A DNA stretch of 64,000 nt from Aquaticitalea lipolytica (GCF_014641635.1 NZ_BMIC01000001.1:998641-1062640), one strand, 5' to 3'; positions 758 through 16,643 are shown, counted from the stretch's first letter. Numbers and translations: made by a program. The notes: a model not told the origin generated them from the letters alone.

Positions 758-2149
758 ATGTTTAATTCAACATTTTTAAAACTAAATAAAACACCTCTTT
801 TAATGGCACTTACTAGTGTCTTGTTTTATGCATCATTTGCCTACGATTTAGTAAGAACAGACTACACAAAGCTATTTACACTATATATCGCATTGTTCTT
901 TTTGTTTTACAAACTCATTCAAGTAAATAAAGACAATTTTAAGTTTCTAGTAGTATTAGCCATTATTTTTAGAGTTGTTTTTTTATTTGCAATACCAAAC
1001 CTATCTCAAGATTTTTACCGCTTTATTTGGGATGGACGGATGATTATACAAGGTTTTAATCCTTATCTATACACACCAGAATCTTTTATCAATATTAATA
1101 TTTTCCCTATAGCACAAGCCCAAGAGTTATATAATGGTATGGGAGAACTAAACGGAAGTCATTTTACCAACTATCCTCCAATAAAGCAACTTGTGTTTAT
1201 GATTGCCGCATTACTATCAGGAAAAAGCATTATTGGGTCTGCAATAGTCTTTAGGATTTTTATACTAGCAGCAGATATTGGCACATTATATTTTGGAAAA
1301 AAACTTTTAGAAAGACTTAATCTTCCTACTCATAATATATTTTGGTATTTGCTTAATCCATTAATTATTATTGAACTTTCAGGAAACCTACATTTTGAAG
1401 GCATTATGATATTCTTTTTAGTGTGGAGTTTATATTTATTGCATTCAGGTAAATGGAAATGGGCAGCTATTGTTTTTGCTTTATCTATTTCAGTAAAATT
1501 GATTCCGCTTTTATTTTTGCCTTTGTTTTTTAAGTATTTTATACAACATCGTTTTACAAAGAGTGATGTTGCAACATCAAAACCCCTTCGCAATGACATT
1601 ATAAATTTAACTGGGTTTTACGCAATTGTAGTTTTAACAACACTGCTTTTGTTTACACCCTTTTTCTCATCAGAATTTATTAATAATTATACTAAAACTG
1701 TAGCGCTTTGGTTTAGTGATTTTGAGTTTAATGCTAGTATATATTACATTGCAAGAAGTATTGGTTATGCAATTACTGGTTATAATGAAATAGCAATCAT
1801 TGGAAAATTTATTCCGCTAATTACGATTATTTCTGTTTTAGGATTTACTTTTTTAAGAAAAAATAACGGTGTTCAGAAGCTTATAATTTCTATGCTTTTT
1901 GTGACTACAGTTTATTATTTTACATCAACAACAATTCATCCTTGGTATATAACAATACTTGTATTTCTATCAGTATTTACCAATTATAAATTTCCAATAG
2001 TTTGGTCGCTAATGTTAGTCATAAGTTATTTTGCCTATGCTAATAATTATAATGAAAACCTCTGGCTTATCACCATAGAATATGCTGTTGTCTTTTCGGT
2101 ATTTATTTACGAAGTGTTTATAGTGCCTAGAAAGCAAAAAATAGCCTAG
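758..2149 (+). CDS. GT87-like integral membrane mannosyltransferase (DUF2029 type)
   Basis: A 463-residue multi-pass membrane protein with about ten hydrophobic segments. Near residue 85 it carries DFYRFIWDGRMIIQGFNPY, which matches the first-loop acidic motif of GT-C glycosyltransferases of the GT87/mannosyltransferase group (D-x-x-R-x-x-W-D-G-R-x-x-x-G-x-N-P-Y). Such enzymes move a mannose or similar sugar from a polyprenyl-phosphate donor to a glycan or lipid on the outer side of the inner membrane. The preceding gene is also a glycosyltransferase, but a terminator separates them. The stop codon overlaps the stop of the convergent antiporter gene in the palindrome CTAG. The acceptor is unknown. 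Confidence 0.75.
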   Translation: MFNSTFLKLNKTPLLMALTSVLFYASFAYDLVRTDYTKLFTLYIALFFLFYKLIQVNKDNFKFLVVLAIIFRVVFLFAIPNLSQDFYRFIWDGRMIIQGFNPYLYTPESFININIFPIAQAQELYNGMGELNGSHFTNYPPIKQLVFMIAALLSGKSIIGSAIVFRIFILAADIGTLYFGKKLLERLNLPTHNIFWYLLNPLIIIELSGNLHFEGIMIFFLVWSLYLLHSGKWKWAAIVFALSISVKLIPLLFLPLFFKYFIQHRFTKSDVATSKPLRNDIINLTGFYAIVVLTTLLLFTPFFSSEFINNYTKTVALWFSDFEFNASIYYIARSIGYAITGYNEIAIIGKFIPLITIISVLGFTFLRKNNGVQKLIISMLFVTTVYYFTSTTIHPWYITILVFLSVFTNYKFPIVWSLMLVISYFAYANNYNENLWLITIEYAVVFSVFIYEVFIVPRKQKIA

Positions 2150-3417
2150 TTTTCGGTTACATCATCAATTGTAGGAGCTTTCCATTTTGTTGTACCAACT
2201 TTTACTTGATTTGCAGTTTTAATTGCTGAGCCAGCTCGTTTCTTATCATAAATCATAGCTCCAGTCATAATTAAACTAGTTCCAATAATTACAAATAATA
2301 ATATACCTGGCTCAAACGTAGCAATTTGTGCTTCAACAGGAATAGCATAAAATAATAATACTGTAATTAATCCTCTTGGCGCAATAAACAACTGTGGTAA
2401 TATATCAGTACCAATAAAGATTCGTAATAGCACAAAACGAATAGCATAAATTGATGCAATAATCATCAAACTAATCATAGCTACATCAAAATTAAATAAA
2501 GAAGCAACGACTATAGTTAATCCGAAAATAACGAAGAAAAGTGTACGAACAACAAAAGCTGTTTCTAATGTAATAATATGTAGTTCGTGATAAATTTGAT
2601 GTGCTTTTTGATAATCTAAAAATTTTGATAGTTTACCTGAAAAGAACAATTTCATATTAGCAATAACTAACCCAAAAATTAAAATAATAATCAATGAAGA
2701 AAGGTGCATTTTTTTACCTAAAGCATATAAAAGCAGTAATACAGCTATGAGTAAGAATAATTTTGCTTGACTTTTTATTTTCTGAAATATCATTATTATA
2801 GCATAACTAGCTACAAGTGATATTAAAATTGTAACTATTAAATTGCCTGCAAAACCAACCGCTCCAGTGTCTTCTGCTGGATTTAATTTGCCAACTAAAA
2901 AGTAAAACATCATAATTCCAATAATATCAGAAAAGGTACTTTCATAAATATGAAATTCCTTTTTATCTTCTCTTAAACCAGTAACACTTGGTATTATAAT
3001 AGCACTTGATAAAATAGATAATGGTGTTGCATATAACCAAGCAGAATGCATAGTCATTTCTGGAATAAATTGATACAATATTAATGCTGCTGCCCAAGCT
3101 GATCCTACTAACCCAACTATTGCAATAAGCATTGATTTTAGTATAGGCATTAGCTTTTCTCTTTTGAGTTCTAACTCTAATGCAGCCTCAAGCACAATCA
3201 TAATAAGTCCTACAATACCAATAATTTCTAACATTGGTAAAAAATTAGGAAGATCCTCTGTAAAATACCCTAAACCATATTGTAATACAACGCCTAATAT
3301 TATTAACATTAAAACCGCTGGAATATTTGTTTTTTTAGATACACCATTAAACAAGAAAGATAAAATGATGATTAGCGAAACGCCTATAATGACATTATAA
3401 GATGAGAAAATTTCCAT
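2146..3417 (-). CDS. Cation/proton antiporter (CPA family, NhaP-like)
   Basis: 423 residues with about twelve hydrophobic segments and no cytosolic regulatory tail. The N-terminus has the layout of monovalent cation:H+ antiporters (a segment ending KKTNIPAVLMLIILGV, then a glycine-rich half helix). The family exchanges Na+ or K+ for protons across the inner membrane. It is the last gene of a tightly packed minus-strand operon, 5 bases after an MscS-like protein and downstream of an SLC12-type cotransporter, which supports a role in ion and pH balance. Substrate ion cannot be told from sequence. Confidence 0.82.
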   Translation of the reverse strand: MEIFSSYNVIIGVSLIIILSFLFNGVSKKTNIPAVLMLIILGVVLQYGLGYFTEDLPNFLPMLEIIGIVGLIMIVLEAALELELKREKLMPILKSMLIAIVGLVGSAWAAALILYQFIPEMTMHSAWLYATPLSILSSAIIIPSVTGLREDKKEFHIYESTFSDIIGIMMFYFLVGKLNPAEDTGAVGFAGNLIVTILISLVASYAIIMIFQKIKSQAKLFLLIAVLLLLYALGKKMHLSSLIIILIFGLVIANMKLFFSGKLSKFLDYQKAHQIYHELHIITLETAFVVRTLFFVIFGLTIVVASLFNFDVAMISLMIIASIYAIRFVLLRIFIGTDILPQLFIAPRGLITVLLFYAIPVEAQIATFEPGILLFVIIGTSLIMTGAMIYDKKRAGSAIKTANQVKVGTTKWKAPTIDDVTEN

Positions 3418-3422
3418 TTGTT

Positions 3423-4121
3423 TTATTGTTTAGTAAGACTTGACTTGATATTAAATTGATTTAAATAATCTATTACAGATTCTATTTTTGCACCATTTTC
3501 GAGTGTTAATTGTATTTGCTGAACCTTCTCTCCTGGAATATTCCAAACAGAAGGATTTTGGTTGAAATCGATTAATGGACTCTCAAAAAGTAAATCCATT
3601 ACCTCATCAGTTTTTTCGGGTTCTAATAAATACAAAGTTTTGCGCATAGAACCATCAACTTTTTGATTAACACAAAACCCTTGTTTATCAATTGTTGAGT
3701 AATTAATAAAACGCTCTCCTTGTTCTACTTTAATTATAAGTCCAAAAGGCAGTAGCTTTTCTATTTCGCCTTGATATTCTCCTGTTACCAAATTAACTCC
3801 AGGATCAATTAATGGGTTAATTTTAAATAAAATTCCGCTGCAGTAGTTTTTAATATGCTGAAATAAAATTATGCCTGCAGCTAATATTAAAACACCATGA
3901 ACTTTATAATTTATAATAACAAAAGCTGCAACAATTGTTAACAAGGCTAATGGCTTATATAACTCGAAAATAATTTCTATCCACTTTTTAAACTTGCGTT
4001 TATAACTATTTCTTCTAAAAAGTTTGAATGCTATTTTTGATAAGATTTTTAATCCAAAAAATAGAAGTATTAATCCTAAAACCAATTTAAAAAAGTCGAG
4101 CCATGTGATTTGTAATTCCAT
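3423..4121 (-). CDS. Small membrane protein resembling a degenerate MscS core
   Basis: 232 residues with hydrophobic segments at about 10-30, 55-72 and 74-88, followed by a soluble region of about 140 residues. The region around residues 95-145 (DPGVNLVTGEYQGEIEKL, then a turn and IIKVEQGERFINYSTI) resembles the beta-domain that follows the pore helix of MscS channels, but the glycine/alanine-rich TM3 signature is not obvious. It may be a divergent channel or an accessory subunit. It sits between the ATPase gene (10-base gap) and the antiporter gene (5-base gap) in one operon. Function is not established. Confidence 0.5.
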   Translation of the reverse strand: MELQITWLDFFKLVLGLILLFFGLKILSKIAFKLFRRNSYKRKFKKWIEIIFELYKPLALLTIVAAFVIINYKVHGVLILAAGIILFQHIKNYCSGILFKINPLIDPGVNLVTGEYQGEIEKLLPFGLIIKVEQGERFINYSTIDKQGFCVNQKVDGSMRKTLYLLEPEKTDEVMDLLFESPLIDFNQNPSVWNIPGEKVQQIQLTLENGAKIESVIDYLNQFNIKSSLTKQ

Positions 4122-4131
4122 AGTTTATAAA

Positions 4132-6498
4132 TTAGTTACGTTGGTTTATAAATTGGTTAACATCACTTAAAACAACAGGATTAATATATAAATGCCCTAA
4201 ATTGTTTCTTAATAATACTTTTGTATTAATAAGTCTTTTTAAAGCTGATTTGAAATCTGATTCAAACCTTGACACCAATATGCGTTTTAATTCTAATTCT
4301 GTTACTTTCTTAAAAATAGACGATTGCTTTAAAATGATTAATTCTTGTTGAGTAAAAAAATCAGGAAAATCGTAATCTACCTCTTTAAATAAAACTTTTT
4401 CGTTCTCTTGAACAAAAGTATAGTATGTCCAAGCTTGAAACACATCACCTAGATTGTTGTTATACTTATGACTCAACTTTGTAATTGCTTTTTGAATCAT
4501 TTTTGCGCTCATAGGTTCTAAATTTTCAGAAACTAAATCTCTATGAGCAGCACCATGACGAATCATTAAGGCTTCAATAATTTCGTCTCTGTCTGTTTTA
4601 CTAACATTTATTGATGTACTAAATACGTTAGAAAAATTTAATCTTGCGTCTAAATGATTTACCATTGCTTTAGTTGTAGATACCATTACAAATGCCACGT
4701 CAGACTCTGTTTCAATAAAATTAATAAGCGCTCTAATATTAGATAACAAACTATAATCTTTATCTCTCCAAAGCTCTAAATCATCAATTAAAATTACTGG
4801 CTTTGTGCTGCCATTGTTATTGTTTTTAATATACTGTAGCGCTTCTTTTAAATTATTAGTGGTTGTAAATTTTCGTCCATCAATAGTTGCAACACTATTA
4901 GGTTGAAGAACAACTATGTTATTCCCAAAATATTTTTTTGAAGTATAATCTAAAAATGTTGAACGACCACTTAATCGTTCTCCAAATACTAAGGCTGATT
5001 TATTAAAGCCAGAATGCCATTGATTTAAGGTTTTACTTAAAGTCTCTTCTTGAGTTTTTCTTGGAATTAAAAACAAATCACCTATAAATTTTTTATTTAA
5101 AAACAACGAGTCATAATGCTCATCATCTTGCTTAAACATTCGATGGTTTAAACAATGTGTTGCTGATTCTATACTAGAATGTGCATTGTAATGTGTAGTT
5201 TTCTTTATTTGTGTATCAAAAAAGGAAAGCCCTTTTTGTATTGGTGATTTTATACTGTTTAAAAAGGTATTACTATTTAAATTAAGTGATGAGTTAAACG
5301 GAACTTCTAAAAACACCTTACCTTTTATAAGATTTGCTATTTGTAATTGAGCCTCTACTTTTTTATTAACTCTTGCAGTAATAACTTCTCCTTTGCTTTT
5401 TAAATCGGATAAATTATCCTTTAAATTATTTAAGTTAGGTGTATTCCTATTTGTGTTTTCTTCATCAGAGCTTTTGGCAAGTTGTATATTGTTTTTAAGG
5501 TTTGTTAAATTAATGCTATTAATACTTTTTAAACTATTTTCAATAGTAATTAAATCCATTACATCTGGTAAAATCTGATAATCAAACCATTTTTGAACAG
5601 CTTTATTTAAATCAATTTCTCTATTAATTAACATTCCTTGCTCAGATGAAATAGGAATTTTTACCTTTTTCAACTTATCTATTTGTGAATTTAGATCTTC
5701 TGTTAAAGTCGATAAATTATTACCTAAAGTTAAATCGTGCACTAACTGTTCATCAATAAAAAATTTCAGCTCTTTTTGAGCATCTTTATTATTAATGTTT
5801 TTTTCAATATGACTAATACTAGCTTCTAGTTGTTTGATTAAAACAGTATGCTTATCAGAAATAGAAGTGCATGCTTTTTTTAAATCATTAAAAGTTTTTA
5901 AAACATCTTCAGATATATCTTTTGCTTGTTCAATATCTTTAAACTGACTTAATAAAGCAGTAAACTGGTTATTATATACACTCCAAGGGTTTTGATGTAA
6001 TGAAAGCTTTTTTGATAATTTATTTGATGCTTTTAAATTTTTGGATAAAGCATTCTTTTTTGCAAATATCTTATTTAGAACATCATCAAGTTGCGATTCT
6101 AAAATAGCTTTACTCTTCTCAAAATGTTTATTAGATAATGTTTTAATTTCTTTTTGTTCTTTTTCTAGAACTTTTACTTTATTAAGTTCTAAAAAAACAT
6201 CTCTGTGTAATATGATTGTGGTTTTAAAATCTTCTGGAACACTGTAGTTTACAATATAGGTTTCAATAACATCGACTTCAGTTTCGTTATTATGCGAAGC
6301 ATCTTCAACATAATTTCCCATATTAATATATAAGCTTACTAGATCTGTAAAATTAGAAACTATTAATTTTTTTAAACTTTCAATAGTATCAATGTCGTTT
6401 AATTTATCCTTGTAAACAGCTAGTTGACTTTCAAATTCATTAAAAGTCACTTTGTTAAAAGTTGGTTTAATTTCAGTTTTAGTGCTACTTATATTCAT
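4132..6498 (-). CDS. Coiled-coil AAA+-like ATPase of unknown function with Arg in the Walker A motif
   Basis: 788 residues, no signal peptide or membrane segment. Residues 1-400 are lysine-, glutamate- and leucine-rich and look like long coiled coils. Around 506-513 there is a P-loop, GERLSGRS, in which the usual invariant lysine is arginine (R512). A Walker B strand ILIDD follows at 569-573 and a likely sensor-1 strand (AFVMVSTTKA) after that. The last 100 residues look like a winged-helix domain. The gene lies 2 bases after an SLC12-type cotransporter and 10 bases before an MscS-like protein, so it probably serves ion transport, perhaps as a regulator or assembly factor. I recognise no named family. 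The function is unknown. Confidence 0.6.
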   Translation of the reverse strand: MNISSTKTEIKPTFNKVTFNEFESQLAVYKDKLNDIDTIESLKKLIVSNFTDLVSLYINMGNYVEDASHNNETEVDVIETYIVNYSVPEDFKTTIILHRDVFLELNKVKVLEKEQKEIKTLSNKHFEKSKAILESQLDDVLNKIFAKKNALSKNLKASNKLSKKLSLHQNPWSVYNNQFTALLSQFKDIEQAKDISEDVLKTFNDLKKACTSISDKHTVLIKQLEASISHIEKNINNKDAQKELKFFIDEQLVHDLTLGNNLSTLTEDLNSQIDKLKKVKIPISSEQGMLINREIDLNKAVQKWFDYQILPDVMDLITIENSLKSINSINLTNLKNNIQLAKSSDEENTNRNTPNLNNLKDNLSDLKSKGEVITARVNKKVEAQLQIANLIKGKVFLEVPFNSSLNLNSNTFLNSIKSPIQKGLSFFDTQIKKTTHYNAHSSIESATHCLNHRMFKQDDEHYDSLFLNKKFIGDLFLIPRKTQEETLSKTLNQWHSGFNKSALVFGERLSGRSTFLDYTSKKYFGNNIVVLQPNSVATIDGRKFTTTNNLKEALQYIKNNNNGSTKPVILIDDLELWRDKDYSLLSNIRALINFIETESDVAFVMVSTTKAMVNHLDARLNFSNVFSTSINVSKTDRDEIIEALMIRHGAAHRDLVSENLEPMSAKMIQKAITKLSHKYNNNLGDVFQAWTYYTFVQENEKVLFKEVDYDFPDFFTQQELIILKQSSIFKKVTELELKRILVSRFESDFKSALKRLINTKVLLRNNLGHLYINPVVLSDVNQFINQRN

Positions 6499-6500
6499 AC

Positions 6501-8693
6501 TTATACCAAGGCATTTTCATTTAAACTATCTAAACAGAAGATAGCCGAAGTTCGAGTAAAATTAACAATTTCAATCATTTCTTTTATATTATTTTCTTTT
6601 AAAATAGGAATAATATTTATGTCTGAATTATTAGACTTTAAAAGTGATGCTTCAGATTGAATGTCATACGATTCAATTATTGAATTTACAGGGAAACGCA
6701 CTAAATCATTCAATAAACTAATATCTTCTTCATTCTGCATACCTAATGAGTCTAATGCTACTTTTACATTAATATTTCCTTTCCAGTTTTTTTGAAGCAT
6801 TAAAGCTGTAAGAATAGAAATATCATTATTTCCAATATCAAAATTGGTTTTCCAACCCGATGGAAATTCTTTAAGCCAAAGCGTAATATCTCTTTCTAAT
6901 GAAAGTCCAACATTTTCAAATGGTACATATAACAAAACACTATATTTATTAAGTTTAGCGACATCAATTAATTTTTGGTATGACTCATGCAACTCTTCAT
7001 TACCATTAACCGTTAAAAACAAAGTGTTTGGTTTAAAAAAGGCAGCATTAAGTGATTGCATACTAATTTTTAAACTTTCTGCTAAATCATTTCCGCTAAT
7101 GTATGTATAGCTTGTTGCAATATTTTTACTTTTTAGTCTAGCGCTTACTTCTGGTAAAAAGACGTTTAATTTATCATCTACATCTTTGTCAAAGCTTTTT
7201 ACAGCTAAAAATTTAACCGAACCTTTAGGCGCTACAGTACTTTCAATTAGTTTAAATGCGCTTCTTATATCTTTTGGAGCTGTAACAGGAATTAATAAAT
7301 CTGGTCTCCATGAGCGAACTTCTCTATTTGGGCTTAATTCGTTAGTTTTTTTAGTAGACCATTCAGCTAAAGCTGTAAACAAACCACTACGTGAATCTCC
7401 AGCATCAGATTTTAATTTCTTTTTTACTAGATAGTAATAAAACACAATTATTAATACAATTGATGCCATTGCTACAATTGCATTAATAATAAACATAACC
7501 GTTAACGAACCAAAAGCGCCTATTATTGGTATTATTATAGGTATTTTTAAAGTTGGTCTAAAACTTGGTAATGCCAATGATTGTTCTATTAATGCTACTA
7601 CATTTACCATTGCATAAGTAATCATGAAAAACATTGTAATTAATGGAGCAATGGTATTTAAATCTCTTAGCGATAAACCTAGCAAAACAATAAATGAAGT
7701 AATAATCATTGCATTAATTGGCTCACCTTTTTTATTAGTTTTAGCTAAAAAAGGGCTTTTTGGTAGTATTCTTTTTTCTCCTAGAGCCAATAATATTCTT
7801 GGAGCACCAACAAATGATCCTAATGCAGAAGATAATGTTGCTCCTAATAATCCAGCTAGAACAATTGGCGCATAATATGCTTTATCAATAAATACGTTAT
7901 AATTTTCTAATAATTCTGTTGGCGTAGCTAATAATGCAGCAACAAATACTAAAGCCATATATACTAATGTTGTTATAATAACTGCACTAATAGTACCAAC
8001 TGGAATATTTTTTCGAGGATTTTTTAAATCTCCAGACATGTTAGCTCCAGCCATGACACCAGTAACTGCTGGAAAAAATACTGCAAAGACGACCCAAAAA
8101 GATGTTCCGCTAAAATTATTTTCTACAGATCCTTTATAATCCCCAAACCAAACAAAATCGTAATTAAGCTCATTAACAAACAATCCACCTACAATTGAAG
8201 CAATTGACAAAATTATGATAGCCATAATTACGTATTGTATCTTAAACGCAAAACTAGTACTGATAAATGCTATTAACATAACCAATGCAAATACCATTAA
8301 GTCTAAAACAAGAGGAGCGTATTCTGGTAGTAATGATTGTAATCCTTCTCTAAAACCAAATACATACATTGCTACAGCAATTGCTTGAGAAAAGAAAAAA
8401 GGAATTCCTATAGCTCCACCAATTTCTAACCCTAATGATTGGGATATTAAACTAAAAGCTCCACCAGATCCAATACGAATATTAGTAGTAATACTTGATA
8501 AAGAAAGTGCTGTTGATAGTGTAATAGCAACAGCTATGATAATAATTGCGAGAGCGCCTAAAATACCTGCATTACCAACAACCCAAGGGTGTCTTATATA
8601 CATAATTACACCTAAAATGGTTAAAAATGTTGGCGTAAAAACCCCAGCCATTGTACCAAACTTTTTTACTGTTTTAGTTGGTTCTGCTTTCAT
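6501..8693 (-). CDS. SLC12-like cation-chloride cotransporter / APC-family permease
   Basis: 730 residues. The first 440 hold about twelve hydrophobic segments and begin with KFGTMAGVFTPTFLTILGV and MYIRHPWVVGNAG, which matches the first transmembrane helices of SLC12 cation-chloride cotransporters. GSGGAFSLISQSLGLEIGG follows, a typical APC-fold segment. Residues about 440-730 form a soluble C-terminal domain, as in the SLC12 family. The family moves K+ or Na+ together with Cl-. Bacterial members are often labelled amino acid permeases, so the substrate is open. It is the central gene of the ion-transport operon, 16 bases after lapA and 2 before the ATPase. Confidence 0.8.
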   Translation of the reverse strand: MKAEPTKTVKKFGTMAGVFTPTFLTILGVIMYIRHPWVVGNAGILGALAIIIIAVAITLSTALSLSSITTNIRIGSGGAFSLISQSLGLEIGGAIGIPFFFSQAIAVAMYVFGFREGLQSLLPEYAPLVLDLMVFALVMLIAFISTSFAFKIQYVIMAIIILSIASIVGGLFVNELNYDFVWFGDYKGSVENNFSGTSFWVVFAVFFPAVTGVMAGANMSGDLKNPRKNIPVGTISAVIITTLVYMALVFVAALLATPTELLENYNVFIDKAYYAPIVLAGLLGATLSSALGSFVGAPRILLALGEKRILPKSPFLAKTNKKGEPINAMIITSFIVLLGLSLRDLNTIAPLITMFFMITYAMVNVVALIEQSLALPSFRPTLKIPIIIPIIGAFGSLTVMFIINAIVAMASIVLIIVFYYYLVKKKLKSDAGDSRSGLFTALAEWSTKKTNELSPNREVRSWRPDLLIPVTAPKDIRSAFKLIESTVAPKGSVKFLAVKSFDKDVDDKLNVFLPEVSARLKSKNIATSYTYISGNDLAESLKISMQSLNAAFFKPNTLFLTVNGNEELHESYQKLIDVAKLNKYSVLLYVPFENVGLSLERDITLWLKEFPSGWKTNFDIGNNDISILTALMLQKNWKGNINVKVALDSLGMQNEEDISLLNDLVRFPVNSIIESYDIQSEASLLKSNNSDINIIPILKENNIKEMIEIVNFTRTSAIFCLDSLNENALV

Positions 8694-8709
8694 TTTTATG
8701 AGCTTTAGA

Positions 8710-8907
8710 TTATTGCTTTCTTTTGTGCCTAAAGGCTAATAACATTCCTGAGGCTAATCCTATTAAAAAACAGCCTAGAATAACTAACACTCTAGACATA
8801 GATAACTTATAAGTTAGAAATTTTATAGTTACAACTTCTGTGTTCTGAATTGTAAAAATGACAACTAATAATATTAGTATTATGGCAATAATAGATTTTG
8901 TGTTCAT
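8710..8907 (-). CDS. LapA-domain small membrane protein
   Basis: 65 residues with two hydrophobic helices (about 5-22 and 40-60) separated by FTIQNTEVVTIKFLTYKLSM and a basic C-terminus. This is the typical form of the LapA (DUF1049) family. In Escherichia coli members are inner-membrane proteins linked to lipopolysaccharide assembly control. In this operon it sits 5 bases after an unknown soluble protein and just before the SLC12-like transporter, so a role beside the transporter is possible but unproved. Confidence 0.75.
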   Translation of the reverse strand: MNTKSIIAIILILLVVIFTIQNTEVVTIKFLTYKLSMSRVLVILGCFLIGLASGMLLAFRHKRKQ

Positions 8908-8912
8908 AATTT

Positions 8913-9356
8913 TTAAAATTCGAGGTTGGCACTATATGGTTTAGACCATTTTCCTATTGTCGTTACAGCTGGTACAAGTACTGCGAATGTTTCAAGTTTT
9001 TTTGTGTAATGCGAACTGCCTGTATAAAGCAAACCAAGTTTTAGCTTTATATCACTAATTATCTCTTCTGATTTTGAAGATGCATTAACTTTAACTTTTA
9101 GTTCGCCTAAAAAATCATCTTTTCTGTCTTCTGTTAATGAATATATTGCACTTTCATCCCAATTCGATACTAATACAGGAATATCAATTTTGCCATGAAC
9201 TTCATATACGTATAGATACAGCATATATTCCATCTGAAGCTTTAAATCAATATCATGAAACTCTACAGTTGTTTTTACAGTAATATCATTAATATTATCA
9301 CCTACAATTATAGTTTCAGGCACATTAATTAACTCAACAGATGAAATCTTTGCCAT
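8913..9356 (-). CDS. Conserved-looking soluble protein, unknown function
   Basis: 147 residues, no signal peptide, no membrane segment. The sequence alternates short polar and hydrophobic stretches and looks like an all-beta fold. It lies 12 bases after the 78-residue gene and 5 before lapA, clearly within the operon. I do not recognise the family. Codon use and spacing support a real gene. Confidence 0.55.
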   Translation of the reverse strand: MAKISSVELINVPETIIVGDNINDITVKTTVEFHDIDLKLQMEYMLYLYVYEVHGKIDIPVLVSNWDESAIYSLTEDRKDDFLGELKVKVNASSKSEEIISDIKLKLGLLYTGSSHYTKKLETFAVLVPAVTTIGKWSKPYSANLEF

Positions 9357-9368
9357 ATTTAAGTTTTA

Positions 9369-9605
9369 TTATTTTAGAGCGTTTACTTTATCTTCGTAAG
9401 CGTGCCATACTTCAGTAATAAACTCATGATCGTTAGAAAAGTCGTTATTTAATTTGTCTAAGGCTTTTTCTAAATCTTTATCTGGATGATTAAATAAATC
9501 TACTTGAAGATGTCCTACTTTTTCAACTAAGCTCTCACATGAATTTTTAATATCTTCTATTTTTCTTAAAAATTCTTCTTTTAATTCTAAATTTGATTTT
9601 TCCAT
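9369..9605 (-). CDS. Small helical soluble protein, unknown function
   Basis: 78 residues, strongly charged and predicted helical throughout (lysine, glutamate and leucine heptads; KIEDIKNSCESLVEKVGHL). No signal or membrane segment. It is the first small gene of the packed block, 23 bases after the GIN-domain gene and 12 before the next. It may be a small binding partner for one of the operon's larger products. No family recognised. Confidence 0.5.
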   Translation of the reverse strand: MEKSNLELKEEFLRKIEDIKNSCESLVEKVGHLQVDLFNHPDKDLEKALDKLNNDFSNDHEFITEVWHAYEDKVNALK

Positions 9606-9628
9606 TGTAGTTATATTATTTTGATTTG

Positions 9629-10450
9629 TTATTTCTTTATTATTTGTGATTTATCGTTTAATCCTTCTACTTTAATATGAGGTGTGCCATATACGTAAAT
9701 AAAGCTTTTACCTTTAGCATAAATATTAAGTTCTTTACTTACATAAACATAAATATCTGATGTATTAGAGGCGTTTAAGTTGGCATTGGTAACTTTTAAA
9801 TCTTTTGCTTTAATATCTGTCGACCCAGTTGTTATAAGGCTTAAATATTCTGCATTTCCTTCAATTTTCATATCAGCTCGTTTGTTTACTGTAAGCGCTA
9901 AATTATCAACCGATAATTTACCTTTTAAATATGCATTATCGTTTAAGACCATTGTAGCCTCGTCACTTCTCATTTGTAATTTTCCTTTAGTATTTCCGTT
10001 AAGATTCATAGTTAATTGTTTAGAATTTACATCTAAATCAAAATCACTTCCATCGTAACCATCTAAAATAAAATTGTTTAAATTGAACTTGTTTAAACCT
10101 TCAATTTTGGCATCATTTCGAAGTGTTATTTTATCTAAGTTTTGAAATGTAACAGATATTTCTAATTTTTTACTAGAAGTAATTTTATGTGTAGTATGTA
10201 TTTTTAAAACACTATCTACCACTTCTACTTTTAAAATTTCTACAAGGTTAGAGTCTGTTTTTAATCGGTATCCATCTGCAGTTGTTTGCATTAAAGACAC
10301 CTCTAAACCATCACCTATTTCAATTTGATTAAAACCTTGAAGATTCTCAAAAACTTCTACAACATCTTTATTCCCTTTTACTTTAAGCTTTTTTTGAGCT
10401 ACAAGGTTTAAAGAAAATAAGACTGTTATTGCTATAAATATTGATTTCAT
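9629..10450 (-). CDS. Secreted GIN-domain (DUF2807) beta-helix protein
   Basis: 273 residues with a signal peptide (MKSIFIAITVLFSLNLVAQ) and then repeated short beta strands such as LTMNLNGNTKGKLQ and MVLNDNAYLKGKL. This is the pattern of the head GIN domain, a right-handed beta-helix found in envelope proteins of Bacteroidota. The exported protein is expected in the periplasm or at the outer membrane. A hairpin lies between this gene and the MscS gene upstream, so it may begin a second transcript that continues into the ion-transport genes 23 bases downstream. Confidence 0.75.
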   Translation of the reverse strand: MKSIFIAITVLFSLNLVAQKKLKVKGNKDVVEVFENLQGFNQIEIGDGLEVSLMQTTADGYRLKTDSNLVEILKVEVVDSVLKIHTTHKITSSKKLEISVTFQNLDKITLRNDAKIEGLNKFNLNNFILDGYDGSDFDLDVNSKQLTMNLNGNTKGKLQMRSDEATMVLNDNAYLKGKLSVDNLALTVNKRADMKIEGNAEYLSLITTGSTDIKAKDLKVTNANLNASNTSDIYVYVSKELNIYAKGKSFIYVYGTPHIKVEGLNDKSQIIKK

Positions 10451-10476
10451 AATTTATATATTTTGTGTTATTTGAA

Positions 10477-10527
10477 TTAAAAAGAAGCGGCTACCAATTA
10501 TGGAGGTACAGAATTAAGATAACCGCT
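10477..10527 (-). terminator. Possible terminator or attenuator after the MscS gene
   Basis: On the minus strand AGCGGTTATC (10527-10518) can pair with GGTAGCCGCT (10495-10486) using two G-U pairs, with a loop of about 22 bases, and is followed by TTCTTTTT. It could end the sigma-MscS transcript, or act as an internal attenuator before the GIN gene. The large loop lowers confidence. Confidence 0.4.
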
Positions 10528-10625
10528 CTTTAATTTCAGTAGAAACTTTCGTCAACATAAATCAACCAACTTTGACATGTTATAAAACTTATAAAAAGCT
10601 GACTATTATTTCTACTGATTTGCTA

Positions 10626-11453
10626 TTAATCTTCTATTTCTACTTTTTTATCAACTAGTTCTTTAATAGGTATTACCACTTTACCTTTAACAGTTTTTAA
10701 TGTGACACAAATGTTGTCTATAGATTCAATTTGCCCTTTAATATCATCAACTTTAATATGCTGGCCTATTTCGAAATTTCTTTTAGAATAAAATGAGAAT
10801 AATAGACTTTGAATAACATCTTTAGATCCAAATCCGAAAGCAATAGCAAAGGCTAATAAAAAAGATCCTAGAACTAGAGTAAGATTGTTTGTTATTATTG
10901 TTGTATCTATACCAGCTTGATTTAATGCTGTTATTGTAATAATAATTGCTATTAAATAATATATTAGGTGACTTATGGCTTTAGCACCAACAAGATCAAA
11001 TGAAGAGAAAAATCCTGCAATAGCTTTTTTTATAAAATTTGCTATATAAAGACCAACCATAAATAATGCAATTGCACTAAATAGTTTTGGAATATAACGT
11101 AATAAATTCCCTATCTCTTCTGATACAATTTTCCAGTTTAATATTTCAAAAGAAACAGTTAAAAAGACTAGAAACATTATAAACTTAATAAAGCCCAATA
11201 TAACGTTGGAAATTTTAAAGTTAACTTGTACTTTTCCAAAAACTTCAGACTCTTTTAGCTTGTCTGTTAGATTATCAACTTTTGCTAATTTAAATACTCT
11301 TTTTAAGATGTAAATTGTAATTTTAGTGATAATCCAACCTAAAAGCAATACAAGTATTGCTCCTATTAAATTTGGTAATACTTCAGCCATTTTAGTACCC
11401 ATATCTCTGAATGTATTATAAATAATATCTTTCCACTGATTTACTGTTTCCAT
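10626..11453 (-). CDS. Small-conductance mechanosensitive channel (MscS family)
   Basis: 275 residues with hydrophobic segments at about 17-50, 80-105, 120-142 and 160-210. The pore-lining helix and following turn read LLAFAIAFGFGSKDVIQSL, the small-residue-rich TM3 signature of MscS, followed by a beta-domain (FEIGQHIKVDDIKGQIESID). The family opens under membrane tension to release solutes on hypo-osmotic shock. The protein stops soon after the beta-domain, so the usual C-terminal alpha/beta cage is absent or very short. It lies 5 bases after the 66-residue gene and is probably cotranscribed with the ECF sigma factor. Confidence 0.88.
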   Translation of the reverse strand: METVNQWKDIIYNTFRDMGTKMAEVLPNLIGAILVLLLGWIITKITIYILKRVFKLAKVDNLTDKLKESEVFGKVQVNFKISNVILGFIKFIMFLVFLTVSFEILNWKIVSEEIGNLLRYIPKLFSAIALFMVGLYIANFIKKAIAGFFSSFDLVGAKAISHLIYYLIAIIITITALNQAGIDTTIITNNLTLVLGSFLLAFAIAFGFGSKDVIQSLLFSFYSKRNFEIGQHIKVDDIKGQIESIDNICVTLKTVKGKVVIPIKELVDKKVEIED

Positions 11454-11458
11454 AATAT

Positions 11459-11659
11459 TTAGTCTTTATTATTTGAATTGTTTTTTTTATTTTTTTTTAA
11501 AATCCCAGAAAATACCGATGCATAATTAAACGTAAATAAAGAAGATACTTCTTGAATTAATTTAATACTTTCAACACCATCCATTACTTTTTTCTTGAGA
11601 TGTATTGGAGCTTCAACTGGTGGATTTCCTATTTTTTTAAATGGATTTTCTTTACTCAT
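11459..11659 (-). CDS. Small protein linked to the ECF sigma factor
   Basis: 66 residues, start overlapping the sigma factor stop by 8 bases, which implies translational coupling. The N-terminus (NPFKKIGNPPVEAPIHLKKK) is basic and the middle (KLIQEVSSLFTFNYASVFSG) is mildly hydrophobic but too short to be a clear membrane helix. The C-terminus is lysine/asparagine-rich. Its position is that of an anti-sigma factor, but it lacks the zinc motif and membrane helix of usual anti-sigma proteins. Function unknown. Confidence 0.55.
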   Translation of the reverse strand: MSKENPFKKIGNPPVEAPIHLKKKVMDGVESIKLIQEVSSLFTFNYASVFSGILKKNKKNNSNNKD

Positions 11660-12230
11660 CTGTTTTTATATTATTATAAGATTCTATAAGCCTAGATTTA
11701 GCTCTTTTTAATCTCATTTTTACTGCACTTTCACTAAGTGTTAACAATACACTTAAATCTTTAATTGATAAATCATCTTGATATTTTAATAATAAAATCA
11801 CTTTGTCCTCAGGGTTAATAAGTTCTAATGATTTTTGTAACTTATCTACTTGCATCTGAAATAAACTATAATCATCTACATCAATCAATAATTCATTAGA
11901 ATCATTTAACTCTACTGATGCTTTTTCTATCTTTTTATTCTTATCTCTATTTACATAGTTTACACAAAAATTATAAGTCAGTACATATAACCATTGCCTA
12001 AAACTTACCTTTTTTGTAAACGTATTTAATTTTGTATAGGCATGTATAAAAACATCTTGTGTTAAGTCTTCAGCCTCTTGTGATGATTTTGAAAAGCCTA
12101 GACACTTATTATATACATTAGTTATATATCTGTCATATAGTTCTCCAAAAGCTGTTGAGTTTTTTGAAGTAAGTATGATATCAACAATTTCTATGTCGCT
12201 AAGAATCTTGATATCTGCTATTGTTTTCAA
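11652..12230 (-). CDS. ECF-type RNA polymerase sigma factor
   Basis: 192 residues. Region 2 spans about 25-95 (FGELYDRYITNVYNKC, then EAEDLTQDVFIHAYTKL and FRQWLYVLTYNFCVNYV). Region 4 spans about 130-185 (LLLKYQDDLSIKDLSVLL and a helix-turn-helix ending ESAVKMRLKRAKSRL). Sigma region 3 is missing, as expected for the ECF group. It is the first gene of the locus with a 210-base upstream region. A classical membrane anti-sigma gene is absent; the coupled downstream gene encodes only 66 residues, followed by an MscS channel. It probably controls part or all of the ion-transport locus in response to envelope or osmotic stress. Confidence 0.88.
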   Translation of the reverse strand: MKTIADIKILSDIEIVDIILTSKNSTAFGELYDRYITNVYNKCLGFSKSSQEAEDLTQDVFIHAYTKLNTFTKKVSFRQWLYVLTYNFCVNYVNRDKNKKIEKASVELNDSNELLIDVDDYSLFQMQVDKLQKSLELINPEDKVILLLKYQDDLSIKDLSVLLTLSESAVKMRLKRAKSRLIESYNNIKTDE

Positions 12231-12382
12231 TTTTTAAAGTTGGTTTATACTTATTAAACACAGAATAATTTAAAAAGTCACATTATTTTTTAAATTATTA
12301 TTAATATAATGAATAAAAAAATAAGTATTAAGCAGATTTAATAATATTATACTACTGTTTATCAGAGGGTTAATAAATCAAA

Positions 12383-12409
12383 AAAAGCTACCGAAAATCG
12401 ATAGCTTTT
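12383..12409 (-). terminator. Hairpin terminator after the VOC-family gene
   Basis: AAAAGCTA (12383-12390) pairs with TAGCTTTT (12402-12409), with an inner CGA/TCG pairing, flanked by A/T tracts. It lies just after the stop of the minus-strand VOC gene and upstream of the sigma factor promoter region. Confidence 0.7.
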
Positions 12410-12439
12410 ATAAATAATTATTACTCCTGTTCTTTAATC

Positions 12440-12853
12440 TTATGATTTAAAAACTTCTTTTTGATTTGTAAAACATTTAAACTCTACTGTAAAATCGTTT
12501 GGGTCTTTAATAAAAAAAGATTGATGCTCTCCCACTTTGTTTTCTAAAAATTTAACTTGAGAAGTAATTTCAATTTTTTTAGATTTTAAAAGGTTTAAAA
12601 CCTTATCCCAATCAGGTTTATCTAAAATAATTCCGAAGTGAAAAGAAGGCAAAATATCTCCATTAAAAGAATAACTTTTGCACTCAAATTTAAAAGGACC
12701 ACACTCTGTAAATGTTATTTGGTTGTTATACAAATTAACATCTGCCCATTTTACAGAAGAACGTCCAATTTGAGCACCTAATACTTCGGAATAAAAAGCT
12801 CTTGTCTTATTAATATTAACACAAGGTAATGCTAAATGAAATTGAGTAGCCAT
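12440..12853 (-). CDS. VOC-family (glyoxalase/bleomycin-resistance fold) protein
   Basis: 137 residues with the two beta-alpha-beta-beta-beta modules of the vicinal oxygen chelate fold. The first starts FHLALPCVNINKTRAFYSEV and the second ends FFIKDPNDFTVEFKCF, where the final E is a usual metal ligand. A histidine in the second module (SFHFGIIL) may be another. The reaction cannot be told from sequence; most such small proteins are labelled glyoxalase-like. It stands alone, with its own terminator. Confidence 0.78.
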   Translation of the reverse strand: MATQFHLALPCVNINKTRAFYSEVLGAQIGRSSVKWADVNLYNNQITFTECGPFKFECKSYSFNGDILPSFHFGIILDKPDWDKVLNLLKSKKIEITSQVKFLENKVGEHQSFFIKDPNDFTVEFKCFTNQKEVFKS

Positions 12854-12955
12854 AAGTTTTTAATTTACCTAAAGTTAAAACTTTTTTTTTCTCATTGTTA
12901 TATTTTATTCAACTTTTTTTTAAAGATTATATTTTGGTTTAAAGCCTATTAAACT

Positions 12956-12986
12956 AAAAAAGCCAACTTAAATAAGTTGGCTTTTT
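12956..12986 (-). terminator. Terminator of the polyamine operon
   Basis: AAAAAGCCAACTT and AAGTTGGCTTTTT form a perfect 13-base stem with a very short loop and a T tract. It lies 20 bases after the last gene (stop near 13007) of the minus-strand polyamine operon. Confidence 0.85.
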
Positions 12987-13006
12987 ATAATTGTTATTAA
13001 TTGATT

Positions 13007-13345
13007 TTAGTCAATATCTTCATCAATTTCTACATCTGCATCTTCGTCTGATATTTCTGGATCTTGAACTGCTTCTGGATCGTCACTATCATAATCTTCA
13101 TAGTCATCTTCGTCATAGTTTTCCATAGTAACTTGTAGTTTAGTACTCACTTTCACTAAATACTTTGTATCGTCTGTTGTTACTTCAACAGCTTCAACTA
13201 TTTCGTTATTAGCATTTTTAAAGGTGATGATATTTTCATCATCATAACCGTCAGGATACTTTTCCACTAATAAAGCTAAAATTTCTGGCGTTAATTTTTT
13301 AAAATCAACGATAACGCGTTTAAGATTATCTCTTTTGTTACTCAT
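13007..13345 (-). CDS. Acidic-tailed protein linked to the deoxyhypusine-synthase homologue
   Basis: 112 residues. Residues 1-75 form a compact domain (RVIVDFKKLTPEILALLVEK, then YLVKVSTKLQV). The last 35 residues are almost only Asp and Glu with a few small residues, giving a very acidic tail. It follows the deoxyhypusine-synthase-like gene by 2 bases, so it belongs to the polyamine operon. An acidic tail might bind polyamine or another basic partner, but that is a guess. No family function is recognised. Confidence 0.6.
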   Translation of the reverse strand: MSNKRDNLKRVIVDFKKLTPEILALLVEKYPDGYDDENIITFKNANNEIVEAVEVTTDDTKYLVKVSTKLQVTMENYDEDDYEDYDSDDPEAVQDPEISDEDADVEIDEDID

Positions 13346-13347
13346 AA

Positions 13348-14328
13348 TTACATGTCTAATAGGTAGGCAAATATAAGTGGTGCAACAATAGTAGCATCAC
13401 TTTCTATTATAAATTTTGGTGTGTCTATATCTAATTTTCCCCAAGTTATTTTCTCATTAGGAACTGCTCCTGAATACGAACCATAACTTGTTGTTGAATC
13501 GCTAATTTGGCAGAAATAACTCCAAAATGGTGTATCTTCTCTCTCCATATCTTGATATAACATTGGTACTACGCAGATTGGAAAATCTCCTGCAATACCT
13601 CCTCCAATTTGAAAGAAACCTATTCCGTTTTTAGAATTATCTGTGTACCAATCTGCTAAGAATGTCATGTATTCTATACCAGATTTCATTGTACTAGCCT
13701 TTAACTCTCCTTTAAGAACGTAGCTTGCAAAGATATTACCCATTGTACTATCTTCCCATCCAGGTACAATAATAGGTAAATTTTTCTCTGCTGCTGCATA
13801 CATCCAAGAATTTTTAATGTCAATTTCGTAGTGCTCTTCAAGAACACCGCTTAACAACATTTTGTACATAAATTCGTGTGGAAAATAACGCTCACCTTTA
13901 TCTTCAGCATCTTTCCATATCTTAAAAATATGTTTTTGTAAACGTCTAAACGCTTCTTCTTCTGGTATACAAGTATCTGTAACTCTGTTTAATCCCTTCT
14001 CTAACAAATCCCACTCATCTTGTGGTGTTAAATCGCGATAGTTAGGTACACGTTTGTAATGTGAATGTGCAACTAAATTCATTATATCTTCTTCAAGATT
14101 TGCTCCTGTACAAGAGATAATTTGAACTTTGTCTTGGCGGATAATTTCACCAAAAATTTTACCAATTTCGGCAGTACTCATTGCACCTGCTAAAGACACC
14201 AACATTTTTGAGCCTTTTGCTAATTGCGCTTCATAGCCTTTTGCTGCATCAACTAGTGCAGCAGCATTGAAATGCAAATAGTATTTTTCAATAAAGTTTG
14301 ATATGTGTCCTTTAGTTTTCGTCATCAT
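13348..14328 (-). CDS. Deoxyhypusine synthase family enzyme (probable polyamine aminobutyl transferase)
   Basis: 326 residues, near the length of eukaryotic deoxyhypusine synthase. Near the C-terminus it has WGKL followed by ESDATIVAPLIFAYL. WGK holds the lysine that carries the butylimine intermediate (here K298), and the acidic-small-residue strand matches the spermidine/NAD site. Bacteria have no eIF5A, so this branch must use another acceptor, and some relatives are homospermidine synthases. It overlaps agmatinase by 17 bases and lies in one operon with arginine decarboxylase, so its substrate is probably putrescine or a product made from it. The exact reaction is not settled by sequence. 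Confidence 0.85.
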   Translation of the reverse strand: MMTKTKGHISNFIEKYYLHFNAAALVDAAKGYEAQLAKGSKMLVSLAGAMSTAEIGKIFGEIIRQDKVQIISCTGANLEEDIMNLVAHSHYKRVPNYRDLTPQDEWDLLEKGLNRVTDTCIPEEEAFRRLQKHIFKIWKDAEDKGERYFPHEFMYKMLLSGVLEEHYEIDIKNSWMYAAAEKNLPIIVPGWEDSTMGNIFASYVLKGELKASTMKSGIEYMTFLADWYTDNSKNGIGFFQIGGGIAGDFPICVVPMLYQDMEREDTPFWSYFCQISDSTTSYGSYSGAVPNEKITWGKLDIDTPKFIIESDATIVAPLIFAYLLDM

Positions 14329-15253
14329 CCTCGAATTTAGAAAATTTGTTTATAGATGAGCCTGATTCTTTAAAGTTACTTTCATAACCATCTTCTACAT
14401 TATCATCTAAAAATTTATAGCTTAACATTTTATAGTATAATTTTGCCGCAAGAAAATCTGATGATCTCTCTTTTGAGTCTGGGCACAACTCAACAATATC
14501 AAAACCTACTACATTTTTTTCTTCAAAAACTTTTCTTAAAAAATCTAGCGTTTCGTACCATAACAAACCACCTGGTTCTGGTGTTCCTGTTGATGGCATT
14601 ATTGAAGGGTCGAATGCATCTAAATCTATAGTAATAAATACATTATCTGTCATTTGATCAATTGCACTATCCATCCAAAACTCATCAGTTACCATTTCGT
14701 GGGCAAAGTATGTTTTTTCTTTGTCCATTACAGTAGTTTCCATAACGTCCATACTACGAATACCTACTTGTATTAGATTTGTCGTTTGACTTGCTTCATA
14801 TAAAGCACATGCATGATTACATTTACTTCCTTGATACTCTTTACGCAAATCGGCGTGAGCATCTAATTGAAGTACTGTAAGGTTGTCAAAACACTCATTA
14901 AACGCTCTAATTGTACCTATAGAAATTGAATGTTCACCACCAAAAGCAGTTACAAACTTGTTTCTTTTAATGTACTTTTTTACAGTTTGATGAACTTCAT
15001 CGACCATTTTTTCTGGTGATGAATTTTCTGTTACTGCATCAGCAAGATAAACGCCTTGTTTGTAAACCTCAGTTTCAGTTTCGATATCGTAAAGTTCCAT
15101 GTTTTCAGAAGCATTTAAAAATGCATCTGGTCCTTTGTCTGCGCCTTTTTGCCAAGTACTTGTACCATCATAAGGCACAGGTATTAATACAATTTTAGCG
15201 GTTTCTAATTTGGAATATTCTTCTTCTATTCCTGCATACGTTTTATTACTCAT
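14312..15253 (-). CDS. speB: Agmatinase (arginase/ureohydrolase family)
   Basis: 313 residues with all manganese ligand motifs of ureohydrolases: GGEHS (H108), DAHAD (D131, H133, D135) and IDLDAFDP (D210, D212). The enzyme hydrolyses agmatine to putrescine and urea. It overlaps the arginine decarboxylase gene by 8 bases and the deoxyhypusine-synthase-like gene by 17, so the three are translated as a unit. Neighbours support agmatine rather than arginine as substrate. The C-terminal 25 residues are acidic and variable. Confidence 0.9.
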   Translation of the reverse strand: MSNKTYAGIEEEYSKLETAKIVLIPVPYDGTSTWQKGADKGPDAFLNASENMELYDIETETEVYKQGVYLADAVTENSSPEKMVDEVHQTVKKYIKRNKFVTAFGGEHSISIGTIRAFNECFDNLTVLQLDAHADLRKEYQGSKCNHACALYEASQTTNLIQVGIRSMDVMETTVMDKEKTYFAHEMVTDEFWMDSAIDQMTDNVFITIDLDAFDPSIMPSTGTPEPGGLLWYETLDFLRKVFEEKNVVGFDIVELCPDSKERSSDFLAAKLYYKMLSYKFLDDNVEDGYESNFKESGSSINKFSKFEDDDEN

Positions 15254-16643
15254 TGTAACCTAAAATTTTAAGTAAGTCTTCACTTTTTTGTTGTTCACTA
15301 AATAATTCGGTCGTTAATTTACCGTTTTCGTCTTTGTCAATTAAAATATGTTTTGGCGAAGGTATTAAACAATGCTGTAATCCACCAAATCCGCCAATTG
15401 TTTCTTGATATGCTCCTGTATTAAAAAAGCCAAGATACAAAGGTTTTTCTTTATTATACTTTGGAAGGTAAATAGCATTCATATGCTGCTCACTGTTATA
15501 ATAGTCATCACTATCGCATGTTAAACCTCCAAGTAAAACTCTTTCATATGAATCGTTCCATCTATTTATTGGCAACATGATAAATCGTTTATTAATTGCC
15601 CATGTGTCTGGCAATGTAGTAATAAATGATGAGTTTATCATATTCCACTTTTCTCTGTCGTTTTGTTGCTTTTGGTATAGCACTTCATAAATTGCACCTC
15701 CACTTTCTCCTACTGTAAAGCTACCAAATTCTGTAAATATGTTTGGAACTGGTACTTCTTCTTGCTCACAGAATAATTTAATCTGGTTTACAATTTCATC
15801 TACCATATACTCATAATCATACTCAAATGCTAATGAGTTTTTTATAGGAAATCCTCCTCCAATATTTAAACTATCTAATGATGGACAAATTTGTTTTAAG
15901 CTTGTGTAAACTTTTAAACATTTAGATAGCTCATTCCAATAGTAAGCATTATCTCTAATACCTGTATTGATGAAAAAGTGAAGCATTTTTAGCTTTACTT
16001 TTTTATTGTCTTTAACTTGATTTCTGTAAAAAGGTAAAATGTTTTTATAGCCAATTCCTAATCTAGAAGTATAAAACTCAAACTTCGGCTCTTCCTCAGA
16101 AGCTATTCTTATTCCTATATTAAATTTACCGTTAATTTCTTGCGATAGTAAATCTATCTCTTCATAATTATCAATTATAGGAATACAGTTTTTATGTCCA
16201 TTATTGATTAATCGAGCAATATTGGTAACATATTGTTCTCTTTTAAAGCCATTACTAATTACATATGTTTTATCTGTAATTTTTCCTTCAGCTTTCATTT
16301 TTTCAACAATATCAATATCAAAAGCAGAAGATGTTTCAATATGAATATCATTTTTTAAAGCTTCATTTAATACGTGTTTAAAGTGAGAACTTTTTGTACA
16401 ATAGCAGTAACTGTACTTGCCTTTGTATTTGTGCTTTTTTATTGCCTTGGCAAACCAGCCTTTGGCTCTGTTTATATTATTTGATATTTGTGGTAAATAC
16501 GTAAACTTTAAAGGTGTCCCATAATCTTCAACCAATTTCATTAAATCAATATCATGAAATTGCAAGTTTTTGTCTTCGAGTTTAAATTCGTCTTGTGGAA
16601 AGTAAAAGCTTTGATTGATGAGATCAATGTATTTTGTATTCAT
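15246..16643 (-). CDS. speA: Arginine decarboxylase, PLP-dependent (alanine-racemase fold)
   Basis: 465 residues, clearly shorter than the about 650 of E. coli SpeA, as is usual for Flavobacteriia. The likely PLP lysine is K84 in YCTKSSHF at the end of the first beta strand of the TIM barrel. A glycine-rich phosphate-binding segment (NIGGGFPIKNSLAF) and the C-terminal GAYQETIGGFGGLQHC stretch follow. The product agmatine feeds the downstream agmatinase, so the operon makes putrescine and then an aminobutylated polyamine. The upstream 309 bases carry its promoter region and one short open frame. Confidence 0.85.
   Translation of the reverse strand: MNTKYIDLINQSFYFPQDEFKLEDKNLQFHDIDLMKLVEDYGTPLKFTYLPQISNNINRAKGWFAKAIKKHKYKGKYSYCYCTKSSHFKHVLNEALKNDIHIETSSAFDIDIVEKMKAEGKITDKTYVISNGFKREQYVTNIARLINNGHKNCIPIIDNYEEIDLLSQEINGKFNIGIRIASEEEPKFEFYTSRLGIGYKNILPFYRNQVKDNKKVKLKMLHFFINTGIRDNAYYWNELSKCLKVYTSLKQICPSLDSLNIGGGFPIKNSLAFEYDYEYMVDEIVNQIKLFCEQEEVPVPNIFTEFGSFTVGESGGAIYEVLYQKQQNDREKWNMINSSFITTLPDTWAINKRFIMLPINRWNDSYERVLLGGLTCDSDDYYNSEQHMNAIYLPKYNKEKPLYLGFFNTGAYQETIGGFGGLQHCLIPSPKHILIDKDENGKLTTELFSEQQKSEDLLKILGYNE

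Follow-up and report, generated by a model that had tools for sequence, protein, structure and literature searches.

Do the eleven minus-strand genes at positions 2146-12230 of this Aquaticitalea lipolytica sequence form a single osmotic or ionic stress unit governed by its own sigma factor, as a preliminary description proposed? The window, meaning the whole stretch of DNA analysed, is 64,000 nucleotides (nt) long, and positions are counted from its first letter. All eleven open reading frames are present where that description placed them. As it also stated, the gaps are mostly short: in order of transcription they measure -8, 5, 175, 23, 12, 5, 16, 2, 10 and 5 nt. Nine of the ten are at most 23 nt, the exception being the 174-175 nt between the genes for an MscS channel and a DUF2807 protein. 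We consider it moderately probable that the locus holds two adjacent modules which control turgor and monovalent cations. Module 1 (10626-12230) is a triad of an extracytoplasmic function (ECF) sigma factor, a soluble protein of 66 amino acids (aa) and an MscS-family channel. Module 2 (2146-8693) contains an SLC12-type cotransporter, a coiled-coil AAA+ protein, a small MscS-like protein (MscS2) and a CPA antiporter. An osmotic or ionic function, as proposed earlier, is plausible. Subsets of the parts are conserved together, and gene order in relatives (sampled within Bacteroidota; L-numbers denote the fetched loci) is kept well beyond chance.

One such subset is the triad. A profile built from the small proteins of the window and of Polaribacter glomeratus found the small-protein gene in 86 of 249 family genomes, and 40 of the 86 were inspected in detail. 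At all 40 fetched loci a sigma factor of the same subfamily is encoded directly upstream of the small gene and an MscS channel downstream, in the same direction; in one of them (L075) the small gene was identified through its NPF motif and not by BLAST. The order sigma factor, small protein, MscS is also kept in P. glomeratus (L003) and again in five loci from the phylum search (L085, L086, L089, L090 and L091), the last of which belongs to a different order and has a small gene that rests on a profile match. The order is thus conserved in 46 of 46 inspected relatives with the small protein. The distance from the sigma gene to the small gene mostly falls between -8 and +6 nt. In the window channel both the transmembrane and the beta domain of MscS were found. 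Most sigma genes of the subfamily appear to start with TTG (26 of 42 calls, including the window gene at 12230), which may limit sigma translation. In genome G279 (L094) the triad contains two tandem small-protein genes.

Two helices are predicted in the small protein, whose N-terminal NPF and Lys-Leu positions are invariant. No Pfam, NCBIfam or PDB family matched it, and no recognised anti-sigma domain of the ZAS, RskA or FecR type was detected in any of 42 members. The earlier statement that no classical anti-sigma gene is present is literally true, but the 66-aa gene is a non-classical candidate that it misses, and we infer that the product of this gene is the best anti-sigma candidate of the locus. 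A structural model of the sigma factor joined to the small protein was made from the natural in-frame DNA of L003, with the stop codon read as a residue. It had good local confidence, and its structural matches were to sigma factors only.

Upstream of the sigma gene lies a conserved promoter-like dyad, GTGACTT-N13-GTGTCTTA. Its core, GTGAC-N15-GTGT, is exact in the upstream regions of 27 of 41 sigma genes and degenerate in about 8 more. The best dyads occur in 26-27 of the 41 regions, compared with 11-13 for the top dyad in three shuffles. The window dyad scores 30.1 bits; no other match in the 64 kb exceeds 8 bits. The sigma operon looks autoregulated judging by this dyad. A scan of 14 genomes with the extended pattern, allowing at most one mismatch, returned 99 sites, while the reversed pattern returned 5. 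In at least eight other genomes an exact site lies ahead of the sigma operon; exact sites also precede a gene for a homologue of Kbp, which binds K+ (E 8e-8), DUF2853 genes, dodecin genes and others. In relatives, motif sites are found by the DUF2807 gene (L094), by the OmpA-family gene preceding the sigma gene (L096) and by a neighbouring envelope operon (L096, L003). The predicted regulon appears to have an envelope and K+ flavour; the motif may be shared by other ECF factors. For the window's own genome the scan recovered the same site ahead of the sigma gene; a second match there runs antisense inside a TolC-like gene and was dropped.

The closest described counterpart of the triad is the Pseudomonas aeruginosa cmaX-cfrX-cmpX/sigX/oprF cluster (SigX, ECF102), in which a sigma factor, a small soluble protein and an MscS channel likewise occur together. 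CfrX is a putative soluble anti-sigma factor, with CmpX and OprF as its companions (PMC8999054, PMC7641640), and a mechanosensing complex of CfrX, CmpX and OprF has been proposed (PMC8999054; PMC7641640; PMC10965496). The motif upstream of the sigma gene, which suggests autoregulation, may be a further likeness. Across the 17 sigma factors scanned, the model with the best overall match is SigX. An OmpA-family gene adjoins the triad in the relatives L096 and L003, whereas the window locus has none. Unlike in Pseudomonas, the sigma gene comes first here and no cmaX-like gene is present, and the small protein has 60-66 aa compared to 84 aa in CfrX.

In module 2, the transporter assignments, like those of the sigma factor and the first MscS channel, are borne out by Pfam matches above cut-off, and Pfam also assigns the DUF2807 and LapA proteins. 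None of the 66-aa, 78-aa, 147-aa, coiled-coil/AAA+ and MscS2 proteins has a Pfam family of its own above cut-off. The earlier labels of ATPase and second MscS-like protein consequently find no direct Pfam match and are supported through relatives, with predicted fold as additional support for the AAA+ protein. When the order was searched with the single 788-aa sequence, 2 of 148 genomes had the protein, and a contig scan with it gave P. glomeratus as the single named relative. The profile search showed the family to be phylum-wide, with members in 73 of 395 sampled Bacteroidota genomes. Foldseek matched the C-terminal domain to Orc/Cdc6 with an E-value of 1.5e-6 (AF2 model with pLDDT 82 and pTM 0.47; full-length TM-scores were low). 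Among relatives, AAA_22 is above cut-off in L120 and at cut-off in L114. PDB searches with the AAA+ and CPA profiles yielded nothing useful.

The AAA+ gene has a near-constant partner. An MscS-like gene is adjacent to it in 33 of 38 loci, as judged by hidden Markov model or alignment; the 38 are 33 census loci plus the window, L003, L004, L094 and L095. MscS and transporter calls in the census rely on profiles built in this work, with Pfam confirmation for the named loci. The window MscS2 has no match to the MscS beta domain, and one of three members matches it weakly. Because a direct profile comparison of MscS2 with MscS reached a probability of only 18%, the link was drawn via relatives: the profile of the window-type MscS2 finds the partners in L113, L116 and L117, which pass the MS_channel_2nd cut-off, as does the partner in L165. 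The order AAA+, MscS-like, CPA is found in the window, L003, L004, L094, L095 and L109-L112 (for L111 and L112, position alone marks the middle gene as MscS-like), and the CPA proteins of the relatives' trios are 60-82% identical.

Natural fusions connect the AAA+ protein to transporters. Four loci (L113, L116, L117 and L165) encode an SLC12-type transporter of about 1650-1700 aa that ends in the AAA+ domain, and an MscS-like gene comes next. At least two loci, L120 and L183, encode a fusion in which the AAA+ domain is C-terminal and Na_H_Exchanger N-terminal. According to Pfam, genes for TrkH and TrkA adjoin the L183 fusion, and L184-L187 are alike in size and layout; this K+ uptake system is missing from the window locus. 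The transporters that flank the AAA+ and MscS2 genes in the window are of the same two kinds that are fused to AAA+ elsewhere, a genomic pattern that argues strongly for an action of the AAA+ protein on both. The SLC12-AAA+ fusions strongly back the earlier guess of a physical partnership between the ATPase and the SLC12-like protein. The window cotransporter matches known prokaryotic cation-chloride cotransporters (SLC12; C-terminal domain PDB 3g40) in its transmembrane and both C-terminal domains, and differs from them in the AAA+ protein that follows it (fused in relatives) and in the added MscS-like partner. Similarly, the antiporter shares Na_H_Exchanger with CPA Na+/H+ or K+/H+ antiporters, and here belongs to an AAA+/MscS2/CPA trio or, in relatives, to an AAA+ fusion. 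No described counterpart of module 2 was found in the open literature searched for transporter, MscS and AAA combinations, a weak negative.

Table 1. Features of the locus in order of transcription, with the basis of each assignment.
Feature	Position	Strand	Basis or remark
Promoter-like dyad GTGACTT-N13-GTGTTTAA upstream of sigma gene	12254..12281	-	dyad search of relatives' upstream regions
ECF sigma factor, TTG start	11652..12230	-	Sigma70_r2 and Sigma70_r4_2 above cut-off; best NCBIfam match SigX PRK09640
66-aa soluble protein, candidate anti-sigma, CfrX-like position, no known family	11459..11659	-	8-nt overlap with sigma gene
MscS-family channel of sigma triad, CmpX-like position	10626..11453	-	MS_channel_1st_1 and MS_channel_2nd above cut-off
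Gap, probable terminator	10452..10625	-	174 nt, folds far better than shuffles
DUF2807 (head GIN) secreted protein	9629..10450	-	Pfam; also after triad in L003, L036, L096
78-aa protein, no family	9369..9605	-	no relative in any fetched locus
147-aa protein, no family	8913..9356	-	in L003, L036 (45-47% identity), weakly L048 (27%)
LapA-domain small membrane protein	8710..8907	-	Pfam; LapA-type gene in L003, L036
Prokaryotic SLC12-type cation-chloride cotransporter	6501..8693	-	AA_permease and both CCC_C_pro domains above cut-off
Coiled-coil and AAA+ (Orc/Cdc6-like fold) protein, Walker A GERLSGRST	4132..6498	-	788 aa; fold and relatives
MscS-like small membrane protein (MscS2), constant AAA+ partner	3423..4121	-	via relatives
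CPA (Na_H_Exchanger) antiporter	2146..3417	-	Na_H_Exchanger 71 bits against a cut-off of 26

That all eleven genes form one sigma-controlled transcription unit, as first described, now seems unlikely. The short gaps favour it, and P. glomeratus L003 keeps the triad, DUF2807, LapA, 147-aa, AAA+, MscS2 and CPA genes in order (with insertions) and has no terminator-like hairpin after MscS. In L096 the DUF2807 gene begins only 3 nt past the MscS gene, and in L094 a motif is found upstream of the DUF2807 gene. However, the 174-nt gap of the window folds far better than its shuffles (z = -5.2), into two hairpins with a T-rich run after the second, and a terminator-like hairpin follows the MscS gene in 20 of 41 relatives. 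The triad normally stands alone, the AAA+ trio occurs without the sigma gene in L095 and L109-L112, and no sigma-type motif was found downstream of the break in the window. Because of the hairpins and the lack of a motif past the break, the genes beyond it probably form a unit of their own; for the same reasons sigma control of module 2 is unsupported. Rfam matched nothing within 1900-13400, the gap included, and a sigma-70 promoter scan gave no more sites than shuffles. Within the triad, the 66-aa protein could instead be an adaptor or activator, for example joining MscS to the sigma factor or assisting the channel. It resembles no anti-sigma family, and its invariant NPF and Lys-Leu positions could dock either neighbour, but regulators are typically encoded in such a place, directly behind the sigma gene and overlapping it, and CfrX is a suspected anti-sigma factor in an analogous cluster (PMC7641640, PMC8999054). 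An adaptor role is, on balance, somewhat unlikely.

For module 2, the alternatives concern what the AAA+ protein does. It could be an ATP-driven motor or chaperone of the Orc/Cdc6 or STAND-like kind, acting for example on DNA or unfolded proteins and merely encoded near transporters. Its fold matches the AAA+ domains of Orc/Cdc6, RuvB and ClpC, and the P-loop is canonical in most relatives (about two thirds of the 33 census loci retain GK). Against this stand the repeated fusion to two transporter families and the near-constant MscS-like adjacency, and in the window copy the canonical Walker A lysine is replaced by arginine. We regard such a motor as improbable. The substitution also makes the ATP-linked part of the preliminary description doubtful for the window protein; a nucleotide-binding or purely structural role is just as likely as ATP-powered action. 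NTPase and membrane-effector pairs occur in defence systems, and module 2 could be an anti-phage or stress-suicide device in which a STAND-like NTPase sensor opens an MscS-like effector channel. The patchy distribution seen with the single-sequence search and weak nSTAND matches are in line with this, whereas the AAA+ protein is fused to cation transporters of a housekeeping type and, in L183, adjoins TrkH/TrkA, which leaves a defence role very improbable.

Several observations weigh against the two-module interpretation as well. The sigma factor reaches 85 bits with PRK09640 (SigX), its best model, below the cut-off of 194, and the likeness of the small protein to CfrX is one of gene position and small size. 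The triad is accordingly not filed as a SigX member, and we propose by analogy that it may work like the SigX mechanosensing complex. The AlphaFold model of the sigma and small-protein read-through (pTM 0.57, without an interface measure) does not demonstrate binding. In the window's own genome the motif was found just twice, at the sigma operon and inside the TolC-like gene, and a wider regulon is undemonstrated there. About a third of the census loci have a degenerate Walker A, and many AAA+/MscS pairs have no recognised neighbouring transporter. Nor is the AAA+ protein essential for transport, since many SLC12 and CPA relatives are found without it.

Taking the two modules as the preferred reading, the following mechanism can be proposed. 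The ECF sigma factor would drive its own operon from the GTGAC-N15-GTGT promoter, and the translationally coupled 66-aa protein would bind it and keep it inactive. The co-transcribed MscS channel would report membrane tension and free the sigma factor. The AAA+ protein and MscS2 would together make up a regulatory complex attached to the membrane, and this complex would gate secondary cation transporters, in the window a presumed K(Na)-Cl cotransporter and the CPA antiporter. Its signal could be nucleotide binding, not necessarily hydrolysis. Swelling or K+ imbalance would then switch the transporters, and cell volume would be corrected. Of all this, the gene order, the motif, the fusions and the adjacency across the family are observed, while binding of the sigma factor, the sensing of tension, transporter gating and the ions carried are proposed.

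Other genes were noted around these loci. Polyamine genes (arginine decarboxylase-like, agmatinase-like and deoxyhypusine-synthase-like) adjoin the window triad at 13348-16643. The same genes are found beside the triad in 2 of the 40 fetched relatives (L057 6429-9801 and L073 6684-10065, in triad orientation), and an S-adenosylmethionine decarboxylase-like gene adjoins the AAA+ trio of genome G001 (L004 3115-3471). Their presence may be due to chance or to a polyamine/K+ link. In L003 (2996-8573) and L096 (12819-17835) an envelope cluster with a sigma-type motif upstream lies beside the triad; it encodes an OmpA-family protein, a coiled-coil protein, two small proteins and a large porin-like protein. 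Besides its tandem small-protein genes, G279 (L094 1967-2408, 6583-7203) has a second sigma gene of the same subfamily 0.7 kb before the AAA+/MscS2/CPA trio, with a bestrophin-type channel gene in between.

More broadly, module 2 may represent an undescribed class of Bacteroidota systems, an assignment we make tentatively and with some doubt. In such systems an AAA+ protein and a miniature MscS-like protein, docked or fused to SLC12, CPA or K+ uptake clusters, would gate them, so that tension and nucleotide state are converted into cation flux. To our knowledge, the bacterial regulation of SLC12-type cotransporters, which are related to animal NKCC and KCC, appears largely unstudied. The fusions and the near-constant MscS-like pairing offer a concrete, testable regulator for them. 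The conserved promoter motif makes regulons predictable, and the triad extends the single studied mechanosensing ECF pathway, that of Pseudomonas SigX (PMC8999054), to a large family in another phylum.

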